From contig JAIUPC010000005.1 of the NCBI GenBank assembly GCA_020161655.1, positions 1-64,000 on the forward strand: a stretch of 64,000 nucleotides of DNA, given 5' to 3'. The position numbers and the translations under genes were made by a program. This DNA is from Pseudomonadota bacterium. Lineage in GTDB: Bacteria; Pseudomonadota; Alphaproteobacteria; Rhodobacterales; Rhodobacteraceae. This document shows positions 19,596 to 35,975 of this stretch, piece after piece (position 1 is the first letter of the stretch; each line of letters begins with the position of its first letter). The notes under the pieces were generated by a model. The model was not told where the DNA came from. It saw only the letters and a program-made list of their open reading frames with translations, and did no database searches.

Positions 19596-20192
19596 CTAGG
19601 CCTCCGACGGGCCCGCCAGGCCGGCATCTGCGAGTTGCTCGGGATCCGGCAGGTCGCGCAAGCTCTCCATGCCGAACGCCGCGAGGAAGGTTTCCGTCGT
19701 GACGAAGGTATGGGGCGCGCCGCGGCGGGGTTCGCGGGGGCCGGTGGTGATGAGGTCCTGGGTGGCCAGCCGCCCGATCAGGTCGCGGGAGATGTCACGC
19801 CCGAAGATCTCGCGCAGCCCCTCGCGGCTGACCGGCTGATGGAGGGCGATGGCGGCAAGGACGGCGAGGTCGAACTCGCTCAAGGACAGCGCCTGGCCCT
19901 CGGCCGCCGCCGCCGCGCGGATCGCCGGGGCATAGGCGGGCCTGGTGCGCAGCATCCAGCCGGCGCCGACCTTCGCCACTTCATAGGGCCGGCCCATGAG
20001 ATCCACGGCAAGGTCGGCGATCAGAAGGTCGACCGAAGCCCCCTGCCCCACCACGCGTCCCAGTTCCTCGCGGGCGACCGGGGCGGCGGAAGCGAACAGC
20101 ACCGCCTCGATCCGCCTGAGCCATTCGCGCCAGCGCAGGTCGGGCGGCAGGTCGGCGAGGTCACGGTCGAGGTCATCGCCGGTTCTGCTCAT
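19596..20192 (-). CDS. scpB: ScpB-like segregation/condensation protein
   Basis: This 198-residue protein is organised as two winged-helix domains like ScpB: 'WREWLRRIEAVLFASAAPVAREELGRVVG' at the start, 'GWMLRTRPAYAPAIRAA' mid-protein and 'LAVLAAIALHQPVSREGLREIFGRDIS' in the second. ScpB bridges SMC heads in chromosome condensation. Plasmid copies occur next to DUF1403 genes in Rhodobacteraceae, as here (2-bp gap). No scpA or smc is visible, so an SMC-independent plasmid role is possible. Confidence 0.75.
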   Translation of the reverse strand: MSRTGDDLDRDLADLPPDLRWREWLRRIEAVLFASAAPVAREELGRVVGQGASVDLLIADLAVDLMGRPYEVAKVGAGWMLRTRPAYAPAIRAAAAAEGQALSLSEFDLAVLAAIALHQPVSREGLREIFGRDISRDLIGRLATQDLITTGPREPRRGAPHTFVTTETFLAAFGMESLRDLPDPEQLADAGLAGPSEA

Positions 20193-20194
20193 CG

Positions 20195-21076
20195 TCAGAC
20201 CCCGTACAGGCGGAACGTGTCGCGCCCGGTCAGTTCGCGCACCGCCCCAAGCGCCACCAGCCGGTCGCAGAGCCTTCGCGCGGCGCGGTCCGGCAAAGGC
20301 AGGGCCGCCGGCGCCAGCGCATCCTGCGACAGGAACATCTCGACCGCCTTTGCCGCCCCCCTGGCGCGGAGCTTCGGCGCCACCGAACGGAGCCGCGCCG
20401 CCCGCCGCGCCAGATCGGCCGCCATCGGCACCGCTTGCGCCGCCGCCCGCACCAGCGCCCGGTGGCAGGCTTGCTGCAACGCCTCCCCCGTCAGCCGCAG
20501 GTCGCGGGACTTCAGCCCGAGGGCGAGGAGCGGCAGGAGGTGCTTGCGCCCCAAAGCCAGTGACAGCGCGGCATCGGCGAGGATCAGCGCCGCGGTCTCG
20601 GCGCGGGGGGTATCTGCCAGTACCGCCTCCAGCACCGCCGCCGCCCGGCCGACCGGGGCGCCCGCCGCATCGAGGCAGAGCGCGATGGCTTCGGGCGTAA
20701 CCCCGTCCAGAGCCTTCGCAAGAGGACCGACCGAGATCGGCCGCGCCACCGCGCGCGTCCAGGCCCGAAGGATCGCGCCCGCCGGTCCCGGATCATCGCA
20801 CGCCTTCGTCAGATGCGCCGCATCGCGCAGGGCCCCCTGCCCTTCGCGCCGGCCGGCGAACCCGGCCGAGGCTTCCGCCGCCCGCAGCGCCAGCCGGTCG
20901 CGCCACAATTCCTGGGGCAGTTCCGGCGAGAGCGCCACCAGATGCAGATGGGCCAGCGCCGCCCCCGACAAGAACGCCACATCCTCAGGGGTTTCGCCGC
21001 GGCCAGAGGTGATCCAGCCCGGCAGGGGGGCTATGCTGGCGGGGTCGCCCGGGTCTGTCGTGGCAGCGTTCGGCAT
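20195..21076 (-). CDS. DUF1403-family protein
   Basis: This 293-residue Ala-rich, largely helical protein carries the DUF1403 pattern: 'AAEASAGFAGRREGQGALRDA', a central 'PRAETAALILADAALSLALG' and a C-terminal winged-helix-like end (LVALGAVRELTGRDTFRLYG). The family's function is unknown. It is restricted mainly to alphaproteobacterial plasmids and is paired with scpB. Its start faces the recombinase gene, so the two are divergent across 114 bp that contain the inverted repeat at 21155..21179. Confidence 0.7.
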   Translation of the reverse strand: MPNAATTDPGDPASIAPLPGWITSGRGETPEDVAFLSGAALAHLHLVALSPELPQELWRDRLALRAAEASAGFAGRREGQGALRDAAHLTKACDDPGPAGAILRAWTRAVARPISVGPLAKALDGVTPEAIALCLDAAGAPVGRAAAVLEAVLADTPRAETAALILADAALSLALGRKHLLPLLALGLKSRDLRLTGEALQQACHRALVRAAAQAVPMAADLARRAARLRSVAPKLRARGAAKAVEMFLSQDALAPAALPLPDRAARRLCDRLVALGAVRELTGRDTFRLYGV

Positions 21077-21154
21077 GGCCGGAGCCTATCCCGGCGCGGC
21101 GCTTTTGGCCAGCAGATCCCGCCCGTTCCGCCGCACCCTGCGTGATGGTTTCAT

Positions 21155-21179
21155 GTCCAATAATGTTGCATTATCGGAC
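21155..21179. promoter_or_regulatory. Inverted repeat upstream of recombinase gene (candidate recombination core or operator)
   Basis: GTCCAATAATG and CATTATCGGAC are 11-bp arms (10 of 11 complementary) around TTG. Seen another way, it is 9-bp arms GTCCAATAA / TTATCGGAC around a 7-bp spacer, the geometry of a tyrosine-recombinase core site. It ends 11 bp before the recombinase start. It could equally be the binding site of an autoregulator. Confidence 0.45.
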
Positions 21180-21190
21180 GCACAGGGAGT

Positions 21191-22300
21191 ATGCTCCGGG
21201 CCATGACCAAAACCCCCGAGAAATCGCCTTCAGCGCCGCCCGAACGTCCTGATCTCCCTGAAGGAGACGAGAGCGCTGCCCCGGCGCGCAGCGCCATCGC
21301 CCTGCCCTCTTCTCTCGCCGGCTCCGGCGCGCTGGATCGTCTGGTCGAAACTGCGCGCGACTATGCCAAGGCTGCAGCCTCAGAGAACACCCTGGAGGCC
21401 TATGCCAGGGACTGGAGCCATTTCGCGCGCTGGTGCCGGATGCGCGGGGCAGAGCCCCTGCCCCCATCGTCCGAGGTGATCGGCCTCTACATCGCCGACC
21501 TTGCGGCACCGGAAGGCAAGACCCCTCCTCTCTCGGTCTCCTCCATTGAACGACGGCTCTCCGGCCTCTCCTGGGGCTACGCGCAGCGCGGGATGCGGCT
21601 CGACCGCAAGGACCGTCACATCGCGACCGTCCTCGCCGGCATCCGCCGCAGGCACGCCAGGCCGCCGGCGCAGAAAGAGGCCATCCTGCCCGAGGACCTG
21701 CGCGCCATGCTGGCCACCCTGCCCCACGATCTGCGCGGGTTGCGTGACCGGGCGATCCTGCTCATCGGTTTTGCCGGCGGCCTGCGCCGCACTGAGATCG
21801 TCAGCCTCGACCATGGCAAGGACGACACGCCCGATTCTGGCGGCTGGGTCGAGATCCTGGACGACGGCGTCCTGATCCGCCTGCGCGGCAAGACCGGCTG
21901 GCGCGAGGTCGAGATCGCCCGCGGGTCATCGGACGACACCTGCCCGGTCCATGCGCTTGCCCAGTGGCTGCACTATGCGAAGATCGACTTCGGGCCGATC
22001 TTTGTCGCGGTCTCGCGCAATGGGCTGAAAGCCACCGGCGCGCGGCTTTCGGACAAGCACGTTGCCCGCCTCATCAAGGCCTGCGTCCGCGATGCCGGCC
22101 TGCGCCCCGACCTGCCCGAGGCCGAACGGATCAGGCTCTACTCCGGCCATTCCCTGCGCGCCGGCCTCGCCTCAAGCGCCGAGGTCGATGAACGCCACGT
22201 CCAGAAACAGCTCGGCCATGCCTCGGCCGAGATGACCCGGCGGTATCAGCGCCGCCGCGACAGGTTCCGTGTCAACCTCACCAAGGCCGCGGGGTTATAG
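21191..22300 (+). CDS. Tyrosine site-specific recombinase/integrase
   Basis: This 369-residue protein has an N-terminal SAM-like DNA-binding domain ('DYAKAAASENTLEAYARDWSHFARW') and a catalytic domain with the R-H-R-H-Y set: Arg in GFAGGLRRTEI, His and Arg in 'GHSLRAG', His in QLGHAS and nucleophile Tyr in MTRRYQRR. It resembles plasmid-borne XerC-like recombinases rather than phage integrases with long arm-binding domains. An internal ATG at 21203 is an alternative start. It could resolve plasmid multimers or act on the dyad just upstream. Its 3' end overlaps the broken TA locus on the other strand. Confidence 0.88.
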   Translation: MLRAMTKTPEKSPSAPPERPDLPEGDESAAPARSAIALPSSLAGSGALDRLVETARDYAKAAASENTLEAYARDWSHFARWCRMRGAEPLPPSSEVIGLYIADLAAPEGKTPPLSVSSIERRLSGLSWGYAQRGMRLDRKDRHIATVLAGIRRRHARPPAQKEAILPEDLRAMLATLPHDLRGLRDRAILLIGFAGGLRRTEIVSLDHGKDDTPDSGGWVEILDDGVLIRLRGKTGWREVEIARGSSDDTCPVHALAQWLHYAKIDFGPIFVAVSRNGLKATGARLSDKHVARLIKACVRDAGLRPDLPEAERIRLYSGHSLRAGLASSAEVDERHVQKQLGHASAEMTRRYQRRRDRFRVNLTKAAGL

Positions 22301-22945: not shown

Positions 22946-24118
22946 ATGAAACAGGAACGGATCGACCTGCTGGTCGGGACCCATGCCGCACGGCTGTCGG
23001 AACGGTTGCAGGCCCATAGGGCGCAGCTTTTCCCGCCGAATGCCCGCAAGGAGCTGCGGAGGTTCACCAGCGGCGAGGTGGCTGAGCTTCTGGGCGTCAA
23101 GGACGCCTATCTGCGCAAGCTCGATCTGGAAGGACGCGGGCCGAAACCCGAAACCCGGACCGGGGGGCGGCGCTACTACAGTTCCGAAGACATCCAGGCG
23201 CTGCGCGCGATGCTGGAAAAGGGCGCGAAATCCCCCGGCACCTACCTGCCCGGCCGCCGTGCGGGCGACCATCTTCAGGTCATCACCGTCATCAACTTCA
23301 AGGGCGGCTCCGGCAAGACCACGACCTCGGCGCATCTGGCGCAGAAACTGGCGCTTGACGGCTACCGGGTGCTGGCGATCGACCTTGACCCGCAGGCCTC
23401 CTTTTCGGCGCTGCATGGCTACCAGCCAGAGTTTGACCTTCTCGACGGCGGCACGATCTATGATGCGATCCGCTACGAAGACCCGGTGCCGCTCAGGTCG
23501 ATCATCCGGAAAAGCTACTTCACCAACCTCGATATCGTGCCCGGCAACCTCGACCTGATGGAGTTCGAGCATGAGACGCCGCGCGTTCTGGCCGCGCGCT
23601 CAGGTCAGATGTTCTTTACCCGCGTCGGAGAAATCCTCGTCGAAGTCGAGGCGGATTATGACGTCGTTGTCATGGACTGCCCGCCGCAACTCGGGTTTCT
23701 CACCATGTCCGCCCTCTCCGCCGCCACCGCCGTCCTTGTCACCGTGCATCCGCAGATGCTCGACGTGATGTCGATGTGCCAGTTCCTCCTGATGACATCG
23801 AATCTTCTCGGCGTCGTGGCGGAGGCGGGGGGTGACATGTCCTACGACTGGCTGCGCTATGTGGTGACGCGCTACGAACCCGGCGACGGGCCGCAGAACC
23901 AGATGGTCAGCTTCATGCGGTCGATGTTCGGCGATCATGTGCTGAACCATACCGTCTTGAAATCCACGGCGATTTCCGATGCCGGGATCACCAAGCAGAC
24001 GCTTTATGAAGTTGAGAAGACCCAGTTCACCCGCGCGACCTATGAGCGCGCGATCGAAAGCCTGAACGCCGTGAACGGCGAGATCGAAGGCCTCATCCAG
24101 CAAGCATGGGGGCGCTGA
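22946..24118 (+). CDS. repA: Plasmid partitioning ATPase RepA (ParA type)
   Basis: This 390-residue protein has an N-terminal helix-turn-helix ('RRFTSGEVAELLGVKDAYLRKL') that binds the operon operator, then a ParA/MinD ATPase domain: deviant Walker A 'NFKGGSGKTTTSAHLAQ', Walker A' 'VLAIDLDPQASFSALHG' and Walker B 'YDVVVMDCPPQLGFLT'. It matches RepA of alphaproteobacterial repABC replicons in length and order. It drives segregation with RepB and represses the operon. Its stop overlaps the repB start (TGATG), implying translational coupling. Confidence 0.95.
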   Translation: MKQERIDLLVGTHAARLSERLQAHRAQLFPPNARKELRRFTSGEVAELLGVKDAYLRKLDLEGRGPKPETRTGGRRYYSSEDIQALRAMLEKGAKSPGTYLPGRRAGDHLQVITVINFKGGSGKTTTSAHLAQKLALDGYRVLAIDLDPQASFSALHGYQPEFDLLDGGTIYDAIRYEDPVPLRSIIRKSYFTNLDIVPGNLDLMEFEHETPRVLAARSGQMFFTRVGEILVEVEADYDVVVMDCPPQLGFLTMSALSAATAVLVTVHPQMLDVMSMCQFLLMTSNLLGVVAEAGGDMSYDWLRYVVTRYEPGDGPQNQMVSFMRSMFGDHVLNHTVLKSTAISDAGITKQTLYEVEKTQFTRATYERAIESLNAVNGEIEGLIQQAWGR

Positions 24119-25023
24119 TGGCACGCAAGGACCTGCTCAAGAGCCTGATGGGGGATGGCTTGGCCGACGCCCCCGCCCCTGCCCTGCCGCCGCGATCGGC
24201 CAAGGGCGCCATCGGCGCCGTCAGCCAGTCCATCGCCGAACTCAGGGGCCGTGCGCTTGTCGAGGTTCCGGCCGATCTGATCGACGGTGCCGGCATCAGG
24301 GACCGGCTCGACCACGACGAGGACGGCATCGCCGCCTTGGCCGAAAGCCTGCGTCTTCATGGCCAGCAGGTGCCGGTGCTTCTGCGCCATTCGCCGAATG
24401 TCGAAGGGCGCTACGACATCGTCTATGGCCGCCGCCGGGTTGCGGCGCTGCGGCAGCTTGGCCGACCGGTCAAGGCGATGGTGCGCGATCTCAACGACCG
24501 CGACCTGATCGTGGCACAGGGGCAGGAAAACTCGGCCCGGAAGGACCTGAGCTTCATCGAGAAGGCGAATTTCGCCAGGGCGATGGCTGCGCAGGGCTTT
24601 GACCGCAAGGTGATCTGCGAGGCGCTCCATATCGACAAGACGGTGATCAGCCGGATGCTGACGGTGGCGGAGGCGGTTCCCGAGCCGGTCATACGCGCCA
24701 TCGGCGCGGCACCTTCCGCCGGGCGCGACCGCTGGCTGGTTCTGGCCGCGCGGCTCGGGTCCGCGACGCCGGCGCGCGCCATCGCGCTGGCCGTGGGCGA
24801 AACCTCGGACATCCGCTTCGAAGCGGTGCTGAAGGGTCTGACGCCGCAGCGTGAAGCCGCCAATGCGGCGCAGCTGAAGGCCGCCGACGGCGCGGTTCTG
24901 GGCGAGGGCCGGGCCGGGCCGCGCGGCGCCAGCCTGAAGCTGACGGATGCGGCCTTTGGCCAATGGCTCATCACGCATATCGACGAGATTCACTGCCGCT
25001 TTCTGAAGGACGGCGGGGAATAG
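24118..25023 (+). CDS. repB: Plasmid partitioning protein RepB (ParB type)
   Basis: This 301-residue ParB-family centromere-binding protein starts at ATG 24118 (MARKDLLKSLMG), overlapping the repA stop. The ParB/Srx domain includes the CTP-binding motif region 'VYGRRRVAALRQLGRPVKAMVRD' and 'GQENSARKDLSFIEKANFA'. A central helix-turn-helix ('VICEALHIDKTVISRMLTVAE') should read parS. Likely targets are the four 16-bp palindromes at 25159, 27058, 28676 and 30209. A small GGGGC/GCCCC hairpin (25023-25038) overlaps its stop. Confidence 0.95.
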   Translation: MARKDLLKSLMGDGLADAPAPALPPRSAKGAIGAVSQSIAELRGRALVEVPADLIDGAGIRDRLDHDEDGIAALAESLRLHGQQVPVLLRHSPNVEGRYDIVYGRRRVAALRQLGRPVKAMVRDLNDRDLIVAQGQENSARKDLSFIEKANFARAMAAQGFDRKVICEALHIDKTVISRMLTVAEAVPEPVIRAIGAAPSAGRDRWLVLAARLGSATPARAIALAVGETSDIRFEAVLKGLTPQREAANAAQLKAADGAVLGEGRAGPRGASLKLTDAAFGQWLITHIDEIHCRFLKDGGE

Positions 25024-25086: not shown

Positions 25087-25137
25087 AAAAAGACCCCCCA
25101 GGACATCACATCCCGAAGGGCCCCATTTCGATCTAGC
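25087..25137 (-). ncRNA. Antisense counter-transcribed RNA (inc-alpha type) between repB and repC
   Basis: On the minus strand there is a promoter TTGACA (25173-25168), 18 bp, TAGATT (25149-25144). About 50 bases on is a strong intrinsic terminator: a 12-bp stem with some G-U pairs (25092-25122) followed by five T residues. This is the position, size and structure of the ctRNA that limits repC translation in repABC plasmids. The -35 lies inside the parS palindrome. Exact 5' end inferred from the -10. Confidence 0.75.
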
Positions 25138-25158
25138 ACTTCGAATCTAGCGGGTCGT

Positions 25159-25174
25159 GTTGACAGCTGTCAAC
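25159..25174. other. parS site 1 (perfect 16-bp palindrome)
   Basis: GTTGACAGCTGTCAAC fits the repABC parS consensus GTT-N4-GC-N4-AAC and is fully symmetric. It lies in the repB-repC gap, a known parS position, and overlaps the ctRNA -35. Confidence 0.8.
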
Positions 25175-25222
25175 CGCGGTTGAGTCCGGCGGGCGCGAAT
25201 TCTTTGCCTGCGTGAATGACAC

Positions 25223-26404
25223 ATGCAGCATCTTACAACGACGCCTTTCGGGCGGCGGCCGGTGAATTCTGGCCTGGTGGCCGCCAACATGCTCCGGGAC
25301 GCACCTGTCCCGGCAGATGTGCCGGACAAATGGACGATCCTGAAGAACCTGACCGCCGCCCGTGCCGTTTATGGCATCAGCGACCGCGATCTTGCGGTCC
25401 TGACGGCATTGGCAAGCTTCCATCCGGGGGCTGCGCTGACCGAAGGCGACGGCACCATCGTGTTTCCGTCCAATGCCGCCCTGTCCGAACGGACGCATGG
25501 CATGGCCGAAAGCACGCTCAGGCGGCATCTCGCGGCCCTTGTCACCGCCGGCCTGATCCTTCGCCACGACAGCCCCAACGGCAAGCGCTACGCGGCGCGG
25601 GACGGCGTGGGCGGGCCTGTCGTCGCCTTCGGCTTCGACCTGCGCCCGCTTCTCGTCCGTTCGGCGGAGATCGGTGCCGCAGCAACTGCGGCGCGCGAGG
25701 CCGCGGCCCGCCAGAGGCGCCTCAGGGAGGCCGCGGTCCTGCGGCTGCGCGATGCCGCCAAGCTCATCACCTATGGTCGCGAGGCTGCACCGGGGGACTG
25801 GGACGCGCTGGAAGACCAGACACGACTGCTTCAGCACAAGATGCGGCGGAAGCTGGACACGGAGCTTCTGGAAGAGATGAACGCCGGGATCCTGGCCGTG
25901 CTGGAAGCCATCTCCGTCCGCCTCGATCCCCAGGAAACAGAAGAAATGGACGGCAATGCCGCCGCAAATGAGCGGCACATACAATATTCAACCATAGACT
26001 CTCCAGATTCTGAACCTTCCTTAGAAAAGGAAGAGGCGTCGGCCGAAGCGCCCTCGCCCGATCCGGCTGAACCGCGATTGCCGCTCTTTCTTGTCCTGAA
26101 GGCCTGTCCCGACCTGCTCGACTATGTGCCGGGAGGCATCCGGCACTGGCACGAGCTTGTGGCGGCCGCCGATTTCGTCCACCCGATGCTCGGGGTCAGC
26201 GTGGATGCCTGGGCAAGGGCGCGCCGCGCCATGGGCGATCCGGTTGCGGCGATCACCCTCGCCTGCATACTTCAGCGGGCAACCGAGATTCGCAGCCCCG
26301 GCGGCTATTTGCGGGCGCTGACCGGAAAGGCCGAAGCTGGGGCATTCTCGCCCGGTCCGATGGTGATGGCGCTGATCGGGACCGAGAATGCCCGCGCAGT
26401 CTGA
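25223..26404 (+). CDS. repC: Replication initiator RepC
   Basis: This 393-residue protein has the RepC layout: N-terminal DNA-binding domain ('SDRDLAVLTALASFHPGA', 'SNAALSERTHGMAESTLRRH' winged-helix region), a charged middle and a C-terminal domain (RLPLFLVLKACPDLLDYVP, ASPGGYLRALTGKAE-like end). RepC is the only protein needed for repABC replication and the origin lies within its gene, probably the AT-rich patch at 25978-26033. Expression should be limited by the antisense RNA upstream. Its stop is only 12 bp before the cas3 start, so cas3 probably shares its transcript. Confidence 0.95.
   Translation: MQHLTTTPFGRRPVNSGLVAANMLRDAPVPADVPDKWTILKNLTAARAVYGISDRDLAVLTALASFHPGAALTEGDGTIVFPSNAALSERTHGMAESTLRRHLAALVTAGLILRHDSPNGKRYAARDGVGGPVVAFGFDLRPLLVRSAEIGAAATAAREAAARQRRLREAAVLRLRDAAKLITYGREAAPGDWDALEDQTRLLQHKMRRKLDTELLEEMNAGILAVLEAISVRLDPQETEEMDGNAAANERHIQYSTIDSPDSEPSLEKEEASAEAPSPDPAEPRLPLFLVLKACPDLLDYVPGGIRHWHELVAAADFVHPMLGVSVDAWARARRAMGDPVAAITLACILQRATEIRSPGGYLRALTGKAEAGAFSPGPMVMALIGTENARAV
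25978..26033 (+). other. Candidate oriV: AT-rich patch with hairpin inside repC
   Basis: A locally AT-rich run in an otherwise very GC-rich gene encodes a non-conserved linker (HIQYSTIDSPDSE). It ends in the perfect dyad CTTCCTT-AGAA-AAGGAAG (26016-26033). In studied repABC plasmids the origin lies in such a patch in the middle of repC. Confidence 0.5.
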
Positions 26405-26416
26405 GGAGAGAGCAAG

Positions 26417-28897
26417 GTGAAGGACCTGATCGAACGCTGGCCGGGCAAGAGCGCCGCCGGGGAACCCGGGATCGAACATCCGGCGGTCTATCACATGCTG
26501 GATGTCGCAGCGGTCGCGGAACGGCTGATCGCGCCGTTTTCTTTCGCGAAACCGCTGGAACAGAGCCTGATCCTGCTCACGGCGCTGCACGACCTCGGCA
26601 AGATCGGCGAACCTTTCCGAGCGATGCTGAAAACCGGCGCGCCTCAGGCGATCGGCCGGCATTGGGAGATGACGGAGGTTCTGCTTTGCCGGCATGACGG
26701 GCTGATCGAGGGCCGGCTCGGTTCCAGCCAGCGGCTGCGCCTGCCGCTTTACGCGGCGACGGCCGGGCATCATGGCCGGCCCCCTACCCTGACCGATCTC
26801 TTCCGCGACCCGCGCCCGGTCAAGGCGCTCGGCCCCGAAGCGATGGCGGATTCCGCTGCCGTCATCGCGGCCTTCGCTGATCTCTGGCCCGATGCCTCGC
26901 TCGACGGCATCCAGCGTGACGAGGTGCTGGCGTCAAGCTGGTGGCTGCCCGGCCTCGTTGCCGCCGCCGACTGGATCGGCTCGAACACGGAATGGTTTCC
27001 GCCCCAGGCGGCGGGCCCCTCGCCCGCCGAGTACCTGGAACAGGCCCGCGCTCGGGCGTTGACGGCTGTCAACAAGGCCGGCCTCGCGACTCCTGCCCCG
27101 GCGACGGCGCGCCTTTTCGATTTCGACCCGCGCCCGATGCAGACCGCCGCCGAAACCATCGCCCTGCCCCATGGCCCGATGCTCGCCGTGATCGAGGATG
27201 AAACCGGCGCCGGCAAGACCGAGGCGGCGCTGATCCTTGCGCAGCGGATGATGGCGAAGGGCAAGGGCCGTGGCCTTTTCTTCGCGCTGCCGACAACCGC
27301 AACCGCCGACGCGATGTTCGCCCGCGCGCGCGCCGTCGTCGCCCGCATGTTCGCCGCACCGCCCAGCCTGGCGCTGGCCCATGGCCGCGCGGCGATGTCC
27401 GCCGGTTTCCGCGACCTGATCGCCGAAAGCGGCGAGGCGACGGATGAACCTCTTTGCACCGACTGGCTGGCCGACAACCGCAGGCGGGCGCTGCTGGCCA
27501 CGGTGGGCGTCGGCACCATCGACCAGGCGCTGCTTTCGGTCCTGCCGACGAAGCACGCAACGCTCCGGCATTTTGCCCTGTCGTCGAAGATCCTGATCGT
27601 CGATGAGGTGCATGAACTCGGCGAGCCCTATCTTGCCACCGAACTCATCCAGCTTCTGAAGGCGCATCGCATGTCGGGGGGATCGGCGATCCTTCTGACG
27701 GCGACGCTGCCGCTTGATCTCCGCGCGCGGATCATCGCGGTCTATGGCGGCGCCGATGACGGCGACCCGGCCTATCCGGCGCTGACCGTGGCCGGGGGCG
27801 AAGCGCGCCGCGATCTGCCGCAGAAGACCGGGCCGCGGGGGCCGGTGGCGGTCGAACGGCTGGCCACGGCAGAGGCGGCGGTGGCGCTGATTGCCGAGAG
27901 GGCGGGGCGGGGGGCGGCCTGCCTCTGGGTGCGCAATGCGGTGGACGACGCCATCGCGGCGGTTACTGCCTTGCGTGAGGCCGGGGTGGAGGCCGACCTC
28001 CTCCACGCCCGCTTCGCGCTTTCTGACCGGTTGCGGCATCAGGAGGCGGCGCTTTCCCGGTTTGGCAAGGGCGGCAAGGACCGCACAGGCCGGGTGCTGG
28101 TGGCGACACAGGTTGTCGAAAGCTCGCTCGACCTCGATTTCGACCTGATGGTCAGCGATCTCGCCCCTGTTGCAGCGCTGATCCAGCGGGCGGGGCGGCT
28201 CTGGCGCCATATGGACCTGCGCCCATCCGCGACCCGCCCGGTGCCGGCGCCGGTCCTGCACGTCGTCTCACCCGATCCCGATCATGTCGAGGACGCCCGC
28301 TGGCTGACCACGGTTCTTGGCGGCGGCGCCTATGTCTACCCGCTGGACCAGCAGTGGCGCACCGCGCGGGTGCTCTTCGATGCCGGACGGATCGTTGCGC
28401 CCGCGGGTCTTCGCGCGCTCATCGAGGCGGCGCATGGCGAGGATGGCATCGCGGTTCCGGAACCGCTTCGTGCCGCCGAAGACCAGCGGATCGCCAAGGG
28501 CTACGCGGCGGCGAACCACGCCCGGCAGAACCTGGTCAAGCTGGAAGATGGCTACCGGCTCGGCGGGGCAGGGGCCGATGATACCGATTACCCCACCCGC
28601 CTCGGCCAGCCGCAACGGACGCTGATGCTGGCGGTCCGGGAAGATGGCGGGCTTCGGCCCTATGCCGGGGCGGGAGTTGACGGCTGTCAACTTTCTGAAG
28701 TGCAGGCCGCCGTCAGCCGCCTCAGCAGGCTGGATTTGCCGGACCAGAGCGCGGCAGAGATCGTGGCGCTGATAAAGGATTGGCCGGAGTGGCGCCGGGC
28801 CACGGTCACGGTTTGCCCGCTGGGGCAGGGGGGGCGGATCTGTGCGGGGCTGCATTACGCTAGGGAAGTTGGTCTGGTGTTCAAGACATTGGAATAA
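26417..28897 (+). CDS. cas3: Type I-E CRISPR nuclease-helicase Cas3
   Basis: This 826-residue protein combines an N-terminal HD nuclease (H21, 'VYHMLDVAAVAE', H58-D59 in TALHDLGKIG) with an SF2 helicase: Walker A DETGAGKTEA near residue 260, DEVHELGE near 395, SAILLTATLP, and motif VI-like 'LIQRAGRLWRH'. Cas3 degrades DNA marked by Cascade. The GTG start at 26417 follows GGAGAG, only 12 bp after the repC stop, an unusual fusion with the plasmid replication operon. Two parS-like 16-mers lie inside (27058 and 28676), read in different frames. All motifs look intact. Confidence 0.93.
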   Translation: MKDLIERWPGKSAAGEPGIEHPAVYHMLDVAAVAERLIAPFSFAKPLEQSLILLTALHDLGKIGEPFRAMLKTGAPQAIGRHWEMTEVLLCRHDGLIEGRLGSSQRLRLPLYAATAGHHGRPPTLTDLFRDPRPVKALGPEAMADSAAVIAAFADLWPDASLDGIQRDEVLASSWWLPGLVAAADWIGSNTEWFPPQAAGPSPAEYLEQARARALTAVNKAGLATPAPATARLFDFDPRPMQTAAETIALPHGPMLAVIEDETGAGKTEAALILAQRMMAKGKGRGLFFALPTTATADAMFARARAVVARMFAAPPSLALAHGRAAMSAGFRDLIAESGEATDEPLCTDWLADNRRRALLATVGVGTIDQALLSVLPTKHATLRHFALSSKILIVDEVHELGEPYLATELIQLLKAHRMSGGSAILLTATLPLDLRARIIAVYGGADDGDPAYPALTVAGGEARRDLPQKTGPRGPVAVERLATAEAAVALIAERAGRGAACLWVRNAVDDAIAAVTALREAGVEADLLHARFALSDRLRHQEAALSRFGKGGKDRTGRVLVATQVVESSLDLDFDLMVSDLAPVAALIQRAGRLWRHMDLRPSATRPVPAPVLHVVSPDPDHVEDARWLTTVLGGGAYVYPLDQQWRTARVLFDAGRIVAPAGLRALIEAAHGEDGIAVPEPLRAAEDQRIAKGYAAANHARQNLVKLEDGYRLGGAGADDTDYPTRLGQPQRTLMLAVREDGGLRPYAGAGVDGCQLSEVQAAVSRLSRLDLPDQSAAEIVALIKDWPEWRRATVTVCPLGQGGRICAGLHYAREVGLVFKTLE
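27058..27073. other. parS-like site 2, inside cas3
   Basis: GTTGACGGCTGTCAAC differs from the perfect palindrome at 25159 by one base and fits GTT-N4-GC-N4-AAC. It is read in cas3 as Leu-Thr-Ala-Val-Asn. Confidence 0.65.
28676..28691. other. parS-like site 3, inside cas3
   Basis: The 16 bases are identical to site 2 but read in another frame (Val-Asp-Gly-Cys-Gln). This argues that the DNA word, not the peptide, is conserved. Confidence 0.65.
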
Positions 28898-28944
28898 CGC
28901 TTTGACCAGAATGTGAAATTTATGGTTGACGGGCGGGCATTCAT

Positions 28945-28976
28945 TGAGACTAACTGTCCTTTAGTTAGTATTCTCA
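28945..28976. promoter_or_regulatory. Interrupted dyad between cas3 and cas8e
   Basis: TGAG-ACTAAC and GTTAGT-ATT-CTCA form an inverted repeat over 32 bp in the 89-bp AT-richer gap, ending 11 bp before the cas8e start. In E. coli the cas3 and Cascade genes have separate control, so an operator or attenuating hairpin here is plausible. Confidence 0.4.
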
Positions 28977-28986
28977 GGCGGCCCGA

Positions 28987-30457
28987 TTGTCCCTCAATCT
29001 CATTTCCGATCCCTGGATTCCCGTCCGTCGGACTGACGGAACCCGCGCGGTCATCGCGCCGTGGCAGATGGCCGATGCCGGCATCGCCTTTCCCGACTGG
29101 CCGCGCCCGGACCTCAACATCGCCTGCCTGGAACTGCTCATCGGCCTGGTCTTCCTTGCCGATCCGCCCGCGCATGACGCGGAGTGGGAGGCGCGGCAGG
29201 CGCCCGATCCCGAACGGCTGCGCGAAAGGCTTGCTGCCTTTGCGCCGGCGTTCGAACTTCTGGGGGATGGCCCCGCTTCCTGCGGGATCTGGAGCCGCTG
29301 GCGGGGGAGCCTAACCCGCCGGACATGCTCTTCATCGACAGCGCGAGTGCCATTGCAGAAGTGGAGAACAGGGATCTGCTGGTTAAGCGAAATCGCTACC
29401 CAGTGCTGCCGCTCCCTTTGGCGGCGATGGCGCTCTACATGCTTCAAGCAACCACGCCGGGCGTAGGGGCCGGCAACCGTGCTTCTATGCGCGGTGGCGG
29501 ACCGCTAGTGACGCTCATTGATCCGGGGCAGGGCCTCTGGCAGCTTCTTTGGGCAAATGTTCCTTATGGCAAACCTGCCACACGTGGCGCGCTGCCGTGG
29601 ATGAGAGCCACATCAACTTCCGAAGCTGGGCAGCAGCGGTATCCCGAACATGCGCACCCGGCGGAGATGTTTTTCGGTATGCCTCGCCGGTTGCGGCTGG
29701 TGGCTGACGGTGTTTGCGTGACAGGAGTTATCCAGCGAATACACGGGATCAGCTATGCTGGCTGGCTGCATCCCCTATCTCCGTATCGCAGAAAAAAGGT
29801 CGGAGACGTCTGGCGCAGTGAGCAATCTGCCCCAGGCCCTTTCGGTTATCGCAACTGGCTGGGCGTCACCGTGGCGCTGCCGCATGAGGATGAATCGCTC
29901 GCCCGCCGTGCGGCGATGGTGCGGGAATGGCAGGTGCGCCGGCCCGATCTGCCGGCCCGGGTGATCGTCGCCGGCTGGTCGATGGACAACATGAAGCCGC
30001 GCGATTTTGTCTATTCCTCGCCGCCGCTGCTCAGGCTTGACGACGCCGCGCTCTACGGCGTGGTCGGGATGATCGAGGCCGCCGAGCAGATTGCGCTGGC
30101 CCTGCGCGCGGCACTGGTGCCGGTCTTGTCCGAAGGTGAGGCGCGGGAAGCCGTGCGAGAGGCGTTTTATGCTGAAACAGAGCCTGTTTTCGAACGCCTC
30201 GCCACCGGGTTGACAGCCGTCAACATCACCGAAACCGCGCGCGAATGGCTGGATGCAATGGCCAAGGCCGCGATCCGGCTGTTCGAGGCAAATGCGCTGC
30301 CCGGTCTCGCCGACCGCGACCAGAAATCGCAGGAGGCGATCATCGGATCATACCGCTTCCTGCGTGCCAATCTTGCCGGGACGGGAAAGTACGGCGCGAA
30401 AGCCCGTGAGCAGCTCGGACTTCCCCGCGAGGGGGCAAGGAAAACGGAGGAACCCGC

Positions 30458-30461
<4 letters not shown>
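28987..30461 (+). pseudogene. cas8e: Cascade large subunit Cas8e (Cse1), single-base frameshift
   Basis: The gene starts at TTG 28987 (MSLNLISDPWIPVRRTDG, the canonical Cse1 N terminus) and stays in frame to about residue 96 (AFELLGDGP). It continues in the -1-shifted frame as 'RFLRDLEPLAGEPNPPDMLF' through 'GGGPLVTLIDPGQGLW' to the stop at 30461. The shift lies in GGCCCC at 29269-29274, where one more C would restore a protein of about 491 residues, normal for Cse1. Everything else looks conserved, including the Cse1 L-domain region. Either the gene is recently inactivated, needs slippage, or the read has a homopolymer error. Cas8e recognises the PAM and recruits Cas3, so loss would silence interference. 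Confidence 0.88.
30209..30224. other. parS-like site 4, inside cas8e
   Basis: GTTGACAGCCGTCAAC is the exact reverse complement of sites 2 and 3 and one base from the perfect palindrome of site 1. It is read in cas8e as Leu-Thr-Ala-Val-Asn. Confidence 0.65.
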
Positions 30462-32694
<2,233 letters not shown>

Positions 32695-32698
<4 letters not shown>

Positions 32699-33381
32699 CG
32701 CTTCATCTCTCGCGGCTTGACATCACCCGCGACCCCGCCGTCGCCACGCTTGGCGCGCTTCTCGACCCGGCGGGGCGGGGCAGGGGGCTTGATGCCCACC
32801 ACCGCCTGATCTGGTCGGCCTTCGCCACCGATCCCGATGCGTCGCGCGACTTTCTCTGGCGGGCCGAGGGCAAGGGCCGCTTCCTCGTGCTGTCCGCCCG
32901 GCCGCCCGTGGCCAGTCCCTTTTTCGATCCGCCTGCGGTTCAGGACTTCGCACCCGACCTCAGGGCCGGCGACCGGCTGGCCTTCGCGCTCCGCGTCAAC
33001 GCGACCCGGACCGAAAAGACCGGCGGGCTGTCGGCAGGTGGGCGCGAGAAGAAGCGCCATGTCGACCTGGTGATGGATGGCCTGCCGCCGCCCGGCCCCG
33101 GCCGGGCCGGGGCGCGGATGGCGGTGGCGCAGAAGGTCGCAGAAGGCTGGCTTGCGGGGCAGGGGGCGCGGGCCGGGTTCCGCCCCGACAAGGTGGTCGC
33201 CGGGGATTATTCGGTGGCGCAGATCCCGCGCGAGCGCGGCAAGCCCCTGCGCTTCGGCATCCTCGATCTTGAGGGCCTCCTGACCGTGACCGAGCCTGCG
33301 GCCTTCCTTGCCGCGCTCGCCCATGGTTTCGGCCGCGCCAAGGCCTTCGGCTGCGGCCTGATGCTGATCCGCCGGGCCTGA
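32695..33381 (+). CDS. cas6e: CRISPR RNA endonuclease Cas6e (CasE)
   Basis: This 228-residue double-ferredoxin RNase cuts the repeat hairpin. The N terminus 'MTLHLSRLDITRDPAVATL' and a His in 'LDAHHRLIWSAFA' fit the catalytic-His region of Cas6e. The C terminus 'HGFGRAKAFGCGLMLIRRA' is the Gly-rich RNA-binding loop. The CRISPR repeat downstream forms the expected CCCCGC/GCGGGG hairpin. It lies 3 bp before cas1. Confidence 0.9.
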
Positions 33382-33384
33382 GCC

Positions 33385-34604
<1,220 letters not shown>

Positions 34605-34665: not shown

Positions 34666-35975
34666 GCGTTCCCCGCCCACGCGGGGATGAACCGAAATTC
34701 GCGGCTGTCGAGGCGCTTATCAACGCGCGTTCCCCGCCCACGCGGGGATGAACCGGCTACAATGGTGCCTGCGCAGTCATCAATACCGCGTTCCCCGCCC
34801 ACGCGGGGATGAACCGATACTCCGCGCTCGGGTAATTGTGAGCGCCGGGCGTTCCCCGCCCACGCGGGGATGAACCGGTCATTGGCGGTACGCCTGACAC
34901 CAGCGTCGAGCGTTCCCCGCCCACGCGGGGATGAACCGGCCATCATCGCAACGCCCATCCACAGCAGCCAGCGTTCCCCGCCCACGCGGGGATGAACCGA
35001 GATTCTATCCGTTCGCCAATATTGGCGGAGAGCGTTCCCCGCCCACGCGGGGATGAACCGGTGAAATCCGCATTGACCGGGTCGAGGCCATCGCGTTCCC
35101 CGCCCACGCGGGGATGAACCGGCACATTGCCAGCCAAGATGCTCCATGAAGGCGCGTTCCCCGCCCACGCGGGGATGAACCGCCTGCCCAGCGAACCAGT
35201 CGCGCAGAGACATAGCGTTCCCCGCCCACGCGGGGATGAACCGAACAGCAGCCATGCGAACATGGTCAGGCCCGAGCGTTCCCCGCCCACGCGGGGATGA
35301 ACCGGAGTCATTTCCAGTTTGCCCTTTCATCCATGCGCGTTCCCCGCCCACGCGGGGATGAACCGCGCTTTCGCATCGATCCGCCGGACGGGGCGAGGCG
35401 TTCCCCGCCCACGCGGGGATGAACCGAAGGAACTGAGGCATCATCAGGAGAGGGCCATGCGTTCCCCGCCCACGCGGGGATGAACCGGGCGGCCTGTTCG
35501 AGCGCATCTCCCTCAATGGGCGTTCCCCGCCCACGCGGGGATGAACCGATGATCTCCGGATCAGCGCCGCCCAGCCTCGAGCGTTCCCCGCCCACGCGGG
35601 GATGAACCGGACCGACAGGCTTCGGCAAGACGCTGGTGGCCGCGTTCCCCGCCCACGCGGGGATGAACCGATCAGCGACGCCATCGGCTCGCTCAACCCG
35701 TTGCGTTCCCCGCCCACGCGGGGATGAACCGGGCATGGACGCGCTTGAGGACCAGATGTTGCAGCGTTCCCCGCCCACGCGGGGATGAACCGCGCCAGCC
35801 AATGGCGGATCGTGTTCCGGTCAAGCGTTCCCCGCCCACGCGGGGATGAACCGCCGCCCACCAGTGCGATGCGAGATCATGACCAGCGTTCCCCGCCCAC
35901 GCGGGGATGAACCGCAGGCGTGGTGGTCCGGGCTGTTGGAGATCGCGCGTTCCCCGCCCACGCGGGGATGAACCG
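34666..35975 (+). CRISPR. Type I-E CRISPR array, 22 repeats and 21 spacers
   Basis: The 29-bp repeat begins GCGTTCCCCGCC and ends GGGGATGAACCG, with a CCCCGC/GCGGGG stem. It recurs every 61 bp from 34666 to 35947. All spacers are exactly 32 nt and I saw no substitution in any repeat, including the last. The 5'-to-3' repeat orientation matches E. coli I-E, so transcription runs along the plus strand from the leader by cas2. Spacer 16 (35610-35641) translates as Pro-Thr-Gly-Phe-Gly-Lys-Thr-Leu-Val-Ala, a helicase Walker A. Spacer 9 reversed reads MSLRDWFAGQ, a phage-like N terminus. Confidence 0.99.

Follow-up and report, generated by a model that had tools for sequence, protein, structure and literature searches.

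Four near-identical 16-mers, one in the gap between repB and repC and three inside the cas3 and cas8e genes that follow, are very probably parS sites of a Rhodobacterales repABC replicon that the adjoining RepB would recognise. This reading is based here on the sequence of the words, their position, their group-specific occurrence, their recurrence in three places of a Cas3 tree and the codon cost paid at one of them (site 3). RepB binding and the need for downstream sites are taken from published work on the Paracoccus aminophilus megaplasmid pAMI4 (PMC9040568), by analogy with which the sites would play the same roles here. The window, i.e., the whole stretch of DNA analysed, comprises bases 1-64000 of contig C22 (146,672 bases), in a genome of 4,079,253 bases and 24 contigs.

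The repABC replicon and its four 16-mers

The genes concerned, all on the + strand, are as follows.

22946..24118, +, repA, ParA-type partition ATPase (Pfam AAA_31, CbiA/ParA)
24106..25023, +, repB, ParB-type centromere-binding protein (Pfam RepB PF07506, ParB_N)
25223..26404, +, repC, replication initiator (Pfam RP-C, RP-C_C)
26417..28897, +, cas3 (Pfam Cas3_HD, DEAD, Cas3-like_C_2)
28987..29466, +, cas8e/cse1, N-terminal piece (Pfam CRISPR_Cse1, profile positions 1-101)
29184..30461, +, cas8e/cse1, C-terminal piece in another frame (CRISPR_Cse1, profile positions 113-449)
30458..30949, +, cse2/casB (Pfam)
30946..32016, +, cas7e (Pfam Cas_CT1975)
31991..32698, +, cas5e (Pfam PF09704)
32695..33381, +, cas6e (Pfam CRISPR_assoc PF08798)
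33385..34323, +, cas1 (Pfam PF01867)
34666..35975, +, CRISPR array (22 repeats of 29 bases, 21 spacers of 32 bases)

The gene order is that of a type I-E CRISPR-Cas system (cas3, cas8e, cse2, cas7, cas5, cas6e, cas1 and the array), with only 12 bases between the stop of repC and the start of cas3, and the single match to PF07506 in the whole genome is the RepB beside the four sites. The initial annotation, made from the letters of the sequence, had named RepA, RepB, RepC, Cas3, Cse1/Cas8e, Cse2 and Cas7 rightly, as judged by Pfam, and has to be amended for cas8e, which is not one open frame here and occupies two. Profile matches place the frame break between ~29274 and ~29328, either a real inactivation or a sequencing error; cas3 is whole, and no intact Cascade large subunit was found in the window, its cas8e being split. 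Upstream of repABC (window 19596-22300) lie genes for ScpB, DUF1403 and a tyrosine recombinase, a plasmid-borne trio that also precedes repABC in Frigidibacter pcai42C (L006). The 21 spacers of the array, compared with the fetched loci and with the array-masked window, gave one 19-base match, to L117.

The four sites, to which no strand is assigned, are listed below.

25159..25174, site 1, perfect palindrome GTTGACAGCTGTCAAC, in the repB-repC gap
27058..27073, site 2, parS-like, GTTGACGGCTGTCAAC, inside cas3, read LTAVN
28676..28691, site 3, parS-like, GTTGACGGCTGTCAAC, inside cas3, read VDGCQ
30209..30224, site 4, parS-like, GTTGACAGCCGTCAAC, inside cas8e, read LTAVN

They share the core GTTGAC-N4-GTCAAC and lie at +139, +2038, +3656 and +5189 from the end of RepB, all within about 5.2 kb. 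What had been read from the letters alone was borne out: the four positions, the perfect palindrome at site 1 and the single change in the others, site 4 as the exact reverse complement of sites 2 and 3, and the frames, L-T-A-V-N at sites 2 and 4 and V-D-G-C-Q at site 3. The same can be said of the claim that four such words exceed chance and that the window holds no others, since the pattern GTT-N4-GC-N4-AAC, which all four sites fit, has 4 matches in the 64 kb for a shuffle mean of 0.66, none of 100 shuffles reaching 4.

One has to keep in mind that this looser pattern is not specific by itself, as it occurs at 37 places in the whole genome versus 35 for its reversed control. Words of the form GTTGACRGCYGTCAAC are found in the 4.08-Mb genome at these four places only, and the strict core GTTGAC-N4-GTCAAC has five exact occurrences (the four sites and one elsewhere, with CTTC as its centre) versus none for its reversed control. 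Allowing one mismatch, the strict core is found at 19 places versus 2 for the control, 15 of the 19 being scattered outside contig C22. Family-wide, at least one core is present in 111 of 394 genomes, chance words included.

The identity of the word rests on a characterised plasmid: GTTGACAGCTGTCAAC is the parS of the repB-repC gap of pAMI4, and the RepB of pAMI4 binds it in vitro, in gel shifts (PMC9040568). The RepB of the window is 56.9% identical to that of NC_022049, i.e., pAMI4 (H54). The pattern described for Rhodobacterales, namely one parS between repB and repC and further ones beyond repC (PMC9040568), is also that of the four sites here.

Occurrence in Cas3 loci with and without repABC

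A set of 85 Cas3 loci was compared, made up of 80 of the 82 loci encoding a Cas3 relative, four plasmids and the window. The cas genes adjoin a repABC of this parS group in eight of them; a further two loci have a repABC of another kind, and the remaining 75 gave no RepB or RepC match. Cores were counted in cas3 and in the part of cas8e aligned to its second piece in the window, the first fifth of cas8e lying outside the count. Exact cores number 11 in the 28.8 kb of the eight loci with a matching repABC, where they occur in six of the eight loci (three in the window, two each in L006, L010 and L011, one each in L064 and L069, none in L042 and L053), versus 0 in the 267 kb of the 75 loci without RepB/RepC match, some of which begin near a contig end, where an upstream repABC may be out of sight, and one of which, Haematobacter L005, is counted here although a different partition system adjoins its cas3. 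The two loci with another repABC have none either. On loci, 6/8 versus 0/75 gives a Fisher p of 7e-8, kinship ignored; the loci are not independent, because the window, L010 and L011 form one clade on the Cas3 tree. The finding that had been named as fatal to the parS reading, i.e., the same 16-mers in cas3/cas8e genes without repABC, was thus sought in 75 loci and encountered in none.

A scan of the whole loci with up to one mismatch led to the same picture: every locus with an exact core also has a RepB or RepC match, and the control loci have one-mismatch words in L088 (one, in cas8e) and L037 (one, outside cas3/cas8e). This distribution supports the view that the words are of parS type and tied to repABC. 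Their embedding in the cas genes is not obligatory, because two of the eight loci, Marinibacterium L042 and Gemmobacter L053, keep parS only outside them.

A quickly built Cas3 tree with 83 rows puts the carriers in three separate places: the window with two Aliiroseovarius (SH-aLRT 96), Ruegeria with Jhaorihella (100), and Frigidibacter. The fewest changes on this tree number three, of which starred branches force only two, as counted for the carriers versus the five other loci with a partition system next to cas3 and not over all rows. We also looked for a different parS word in the cas genes of plasmids with another RepB; by palindrome clustering only, no recurring near-palindrome was found there besides words of the CRISPR repeat. 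Outside the cas genes, such words do turn up: a single GTTCACAGCTGTGAAC shortly behind the repC of L066, CTTAACAGCTGTTAAG with a near copy of it downstream of the repC of L081, and a pair of near-palindromes between the ParB-type and initiator genes of L005.

The initial annotation had proposed conservation of the DNA word and not of the peptide, and site 3 gives the clearest argument for it. The word can be read in two frames, as L-T-A-V-N or V-D-x-C-Q, the third frame reading TGA, and both readable frames are used. At site 3, VDGCQ is common to the window, L010 and L011, three species with 67-82% protein identity, and the position of its Cys is occupied by Trp in 53 of the 73 Cas3 rows without RepB/RepC match and by Cys in one; the proposal thus stands, because the word replaces the common Trp by Cys. 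The sites in cas3/cas8e lie at different aligned places in the three carrier lineages, the first cas3 site of Frigidibacter falling within an insertion of three residues as compared with the rows shown. Within the clade of the window and the two Aliiroseovarius, the core of site 2 has an aligned counterpart in A. sediminis L011 and none in A. crassostreae L010, which makes single sites dispensable, and that of site 4 has one in L010. Identity over five codons among the window, L010 and L011 also occurs at two other places in cas3. Shuffling synonymous codons 2000 times gave a mean of 0.0185 cores in cas3, where 2 are observed, and of 0.0065 in the second cas8e piece, where 1 is observed, the largest count being 1 in both cases.

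Sites at the end of repC and a predicted antisense promoter

Among the loci with both RepB and a core, 20 of 28 (window included) have a core in the repB-repC gap, at about +110 to +160 after RepB, and related replicons commonly have a second core, at the repC end or closely behind it. In ten loci (L112, L116, L117, L120, L124, L135, L143, L155, L160, and L164), the TGA of the parS is itself the stop codon of repC, the site starting 4 bases before the last base of the stop. One of these, L120, which belongs to the same RepB group, also has downstream of repC a 156-residue piece 49% similar to Cas3 (L120:4474-4941, minus strand), possibly a cas3 remnant.

Of 41 replicons classified by hand, 35 carry a parS that is at most 1 kb from the repC end and outside the following gene. 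For this count, genes were called by codon score, offsets were taken from a piece in L069, L128 and L132, whose repC is split, and L154 was scored as having the site although its site lies in the last 33 bases of repC. L112, L140 and L147 were left out because they have too little sequence, L136 because no repC was called in it, and so were the replicons without a core nearby; L111, L118, L122, L123, L125 and L126 have no row in this survey. Intragenic parS occur in five of the six replicons lacking such a site versus 4 of the 35 others (p 0.0009, kinship ignored and with the window, L010 and L011, one clade on Cas3, included). The genes concerned are not always cas genes: the intragenic site of L138, one of those five, is in a 1056-codon frame without Pfam match and that of L113 in a 6-phosphogluconate dehydrogenase gene, which indicates that the cas genes are not special and merely lie next to repC. 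This pattern fits the published proposal that downstream parS are selected even in coding sequence (PMC9040568). A stricter rule, by which parS enters cas3 only when the gap between repC and cas3 is tiny, was too simple, as a site is retained in the short gap of both L064 and L053; in Frigidibacter L006, the length of that gap depends on the chosen start codon.

Site 1 overlaps a predicted antisense promoter on the minus strand.

25144..25173, -, predicted antisense promoter (-35 TTGACA, part of parS site 1; -10 TAGATT)
25090..25124, -, terminator-like stem of 16 pairs after the predicted promoter

Such predictions are to be read against their background: the consensus scan, in which chance sites occur, gave 3 promoter-like sites in 13.6 kb for a shuffle mean of 1.0, and the region has 12 terminator-like sites for a shuffle mean of 8.5, the stem at 25090..25124 having the most pairs. 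Across replicons, the arrangement recurs. With a spacing of 16-19, at least 3 of 6 matches to the -10 are found on the antisense strand for 32 of 33 distinct repB-repC sites versus 2 of 33 on the other strand, and for 12 of 78 sites downstream of repC (duplicate loci included). An Rfam search for a known ctRNA at the predicted promoter gave no match. The promoter and stem are likely a ctRNA gene, and the conserved -35/-10 pair at repB-repC sites fits an antisense RNA controlling repC; control by RepB of an antisense RNA acting on repC has indeed been suggested (PMC9040568). If the repB-repC site serves repC control in this way, we infer that partition is left as the likely job of the downstream sites, and the partition sites of the present replicon would then likely be those inside cas3 and cas8e.

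Proposed roles, alternatives and known systems

We propose the following scheme. Site 1 would double as the -35 box of the ctRNA-type promoter, so that RepB bound there probably tunes RepC. Related replicons usually have further parS at the repC end or soon behind it, which presumably serve partition. In the window, where the cas operon starts 12 bases after repC, no such site is left, and the downstream sites lie inside cas3 and cas8e instead, using only the two stop-free frames of the word. RepB bound at all four sites would build a single partition complex spanning about 5 kb, to be moved by RepA. In pAMI4, downstream parS are required for full stability, the repB-repC site alone being insufficient, and small plasmids with both the 3parS region and the repB-repC site were less stable than those with either; plasmids with parS in cas genes were outside the set tested (PMC9040568). 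By this analogy, it is plausible that the cas genes hold the main centromere.

Other explanations were weighed against this scheme. RepB could act from the cas sites mainly on expression, spreading or looping so as to tune cas3 or Cascade and leaving partition to site 1. The sites do lie within the cas operon, and cas3 may be read from the repABC promoter, because the 12-base gap and the sequence just before it have no promoter-like site on the + strand in the consensus scan. Partition through site 1 sits badly, however, with the incomplete stability conferred by the repB-repC site alone in pAMI4 (PMC9040568), and many replicons without a cas3 match also carry sites downstream of repC, so that we consider a mainly regulatory role improbable. 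The same replicons bear on the idea that another DNA-binding protein, for example a cas regulator, shares the repABC palindrome. Our evidence consists of sequence, which leaves room for such a protein, but the same core is found in the repB-repC gap and at the repC end of replicons without cas3 match and is the word bound by the RepB of pAMI4 (PMC9040568); this makes it very improbable.

That the words merely follow from conserved residues of Cas3 and Cas8e, or from chance, is hardly credible. Two sites do read the same peptide, LTAVN, and about half of the codons at conserved residues agree anyway between the window and L011 (0.504); but the rows shown do not conserve the peptide, the word occurs in both of its stop-free frames, the synonymous shuffles expect only 0.0185 and 0.0065 cores, and none of the 75 related loci without RepB/RepC match has the exact core. 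Peptide conservation as the cause is ruled out by these control loci together with the codon alignment.

A bolder form of the partition scheme holds that the sites in cas3 (and cas8e) are the main centromere, that cas3 is kept for it regardless of immunity and that the CRISPR system was captured by the plasmid in such a way that cas3 can outlive it. We regard this as doubtful. An open cas3 with its HD and helicase domains kept and with two parS cores lies directly after repC in Aliiroseovarius sediminis (L011:5151-7607), and no Cas8e, Cse2 or Cas7 match was found within 10 kb downstream of it, which makes this locus the only one, among 77 with at least 5 kb downstream, to lack all three. In the 3.3-Mb assembly of A. 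sediminis, no Cas7 was found by a search that has matches in both other genomes searched, nor any Cse1 by a search run without a near-relative control. This cas3 is not visibly decaying, because its end branch on the Cas3 tree is 0.13 versus 0.12 for its sister. The orphan cas3 and the split cas8e of the window fit a cas3 kept for its centromere words, although two cases, the second of which may be a sequencing error, make no rule. The earlier suggestion that the words lock the cas genes to the plasmid backbone is therefore retained as a weak one: the orphan cas3 of A. sediminis speaks for it, and it is not general, with two of the eight loci having parS only outside the cas genes.

One DNA stretch would here answer two unrelated demands, i.e., to code for CRISPR enzymes and to display centromere words spaced so that they can be used. 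Should the sites indeed act as the centromere, the defence system would be inherited as a physical component of the plasmid, and the retention of cas genes by such plasmids would be easier to understand.

Centromere words are known to be tolerated in reading frames, chromosomal parS sites being found within coding sequence in, e.g., Bacillus subtilis. That case involves a chromosomal ParB and a different word, with no tie to a defence operon, whereas the window combines a plasmid RepB with a cas operon.

Closer to the window, Czarnecki et al. (2022) reported parS inside cas3, casA and casB beside repABC in six species, judged that intragenic parS evolved several times and proposed selection for downstream parS (PMC9040568). 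Within the open-licence library searched, this is the single paper to combine parS, cas3 and repC. As in the window, their cases have the same parS word within cas3/casA downstream of repABC, so that the window is not new in kind; it is a further case, or possibly one of the same. Two differences are apparent: casB sites are named there (PMC9040568), whereas an exact core was placed in Cse2 in none of our six carriers; and Marinibacterium profundimaris is among their six species (PMC9040568), whereas our scan of L042 with up to one mismatch gave no core in the cas genes, although the contig or the criterion may differ. The window and pAMI4 both have GTTGACAGCTGTCAAC between repB and repC and several further parS beyond repC; the 3parS region of pAMI4 is an AT-rich, non-coding stretch 11.5 kb past repC (PMC9040568), whereas the downstream sites of the window are in coding sequence and within 4 kb of repC. 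No report of an orphan cas3 carrying parS was found in the portion of the open-licence literature consulted, and the available text of PMC9040568 contains neither control cas loci nor a codon comparison nor such a cas3, all three belonging to the present analysis. To the published arrangement, our work thus adds evidence in the form of a negative control and of codon data, which point to selection on the DNA word itself; also new here are the occurrence of intragenic sites mostly where a site near the repC end is missing, the conserved predicted antisense promoter fused to site 1 and the orphan, open cas3 with its two parS words.
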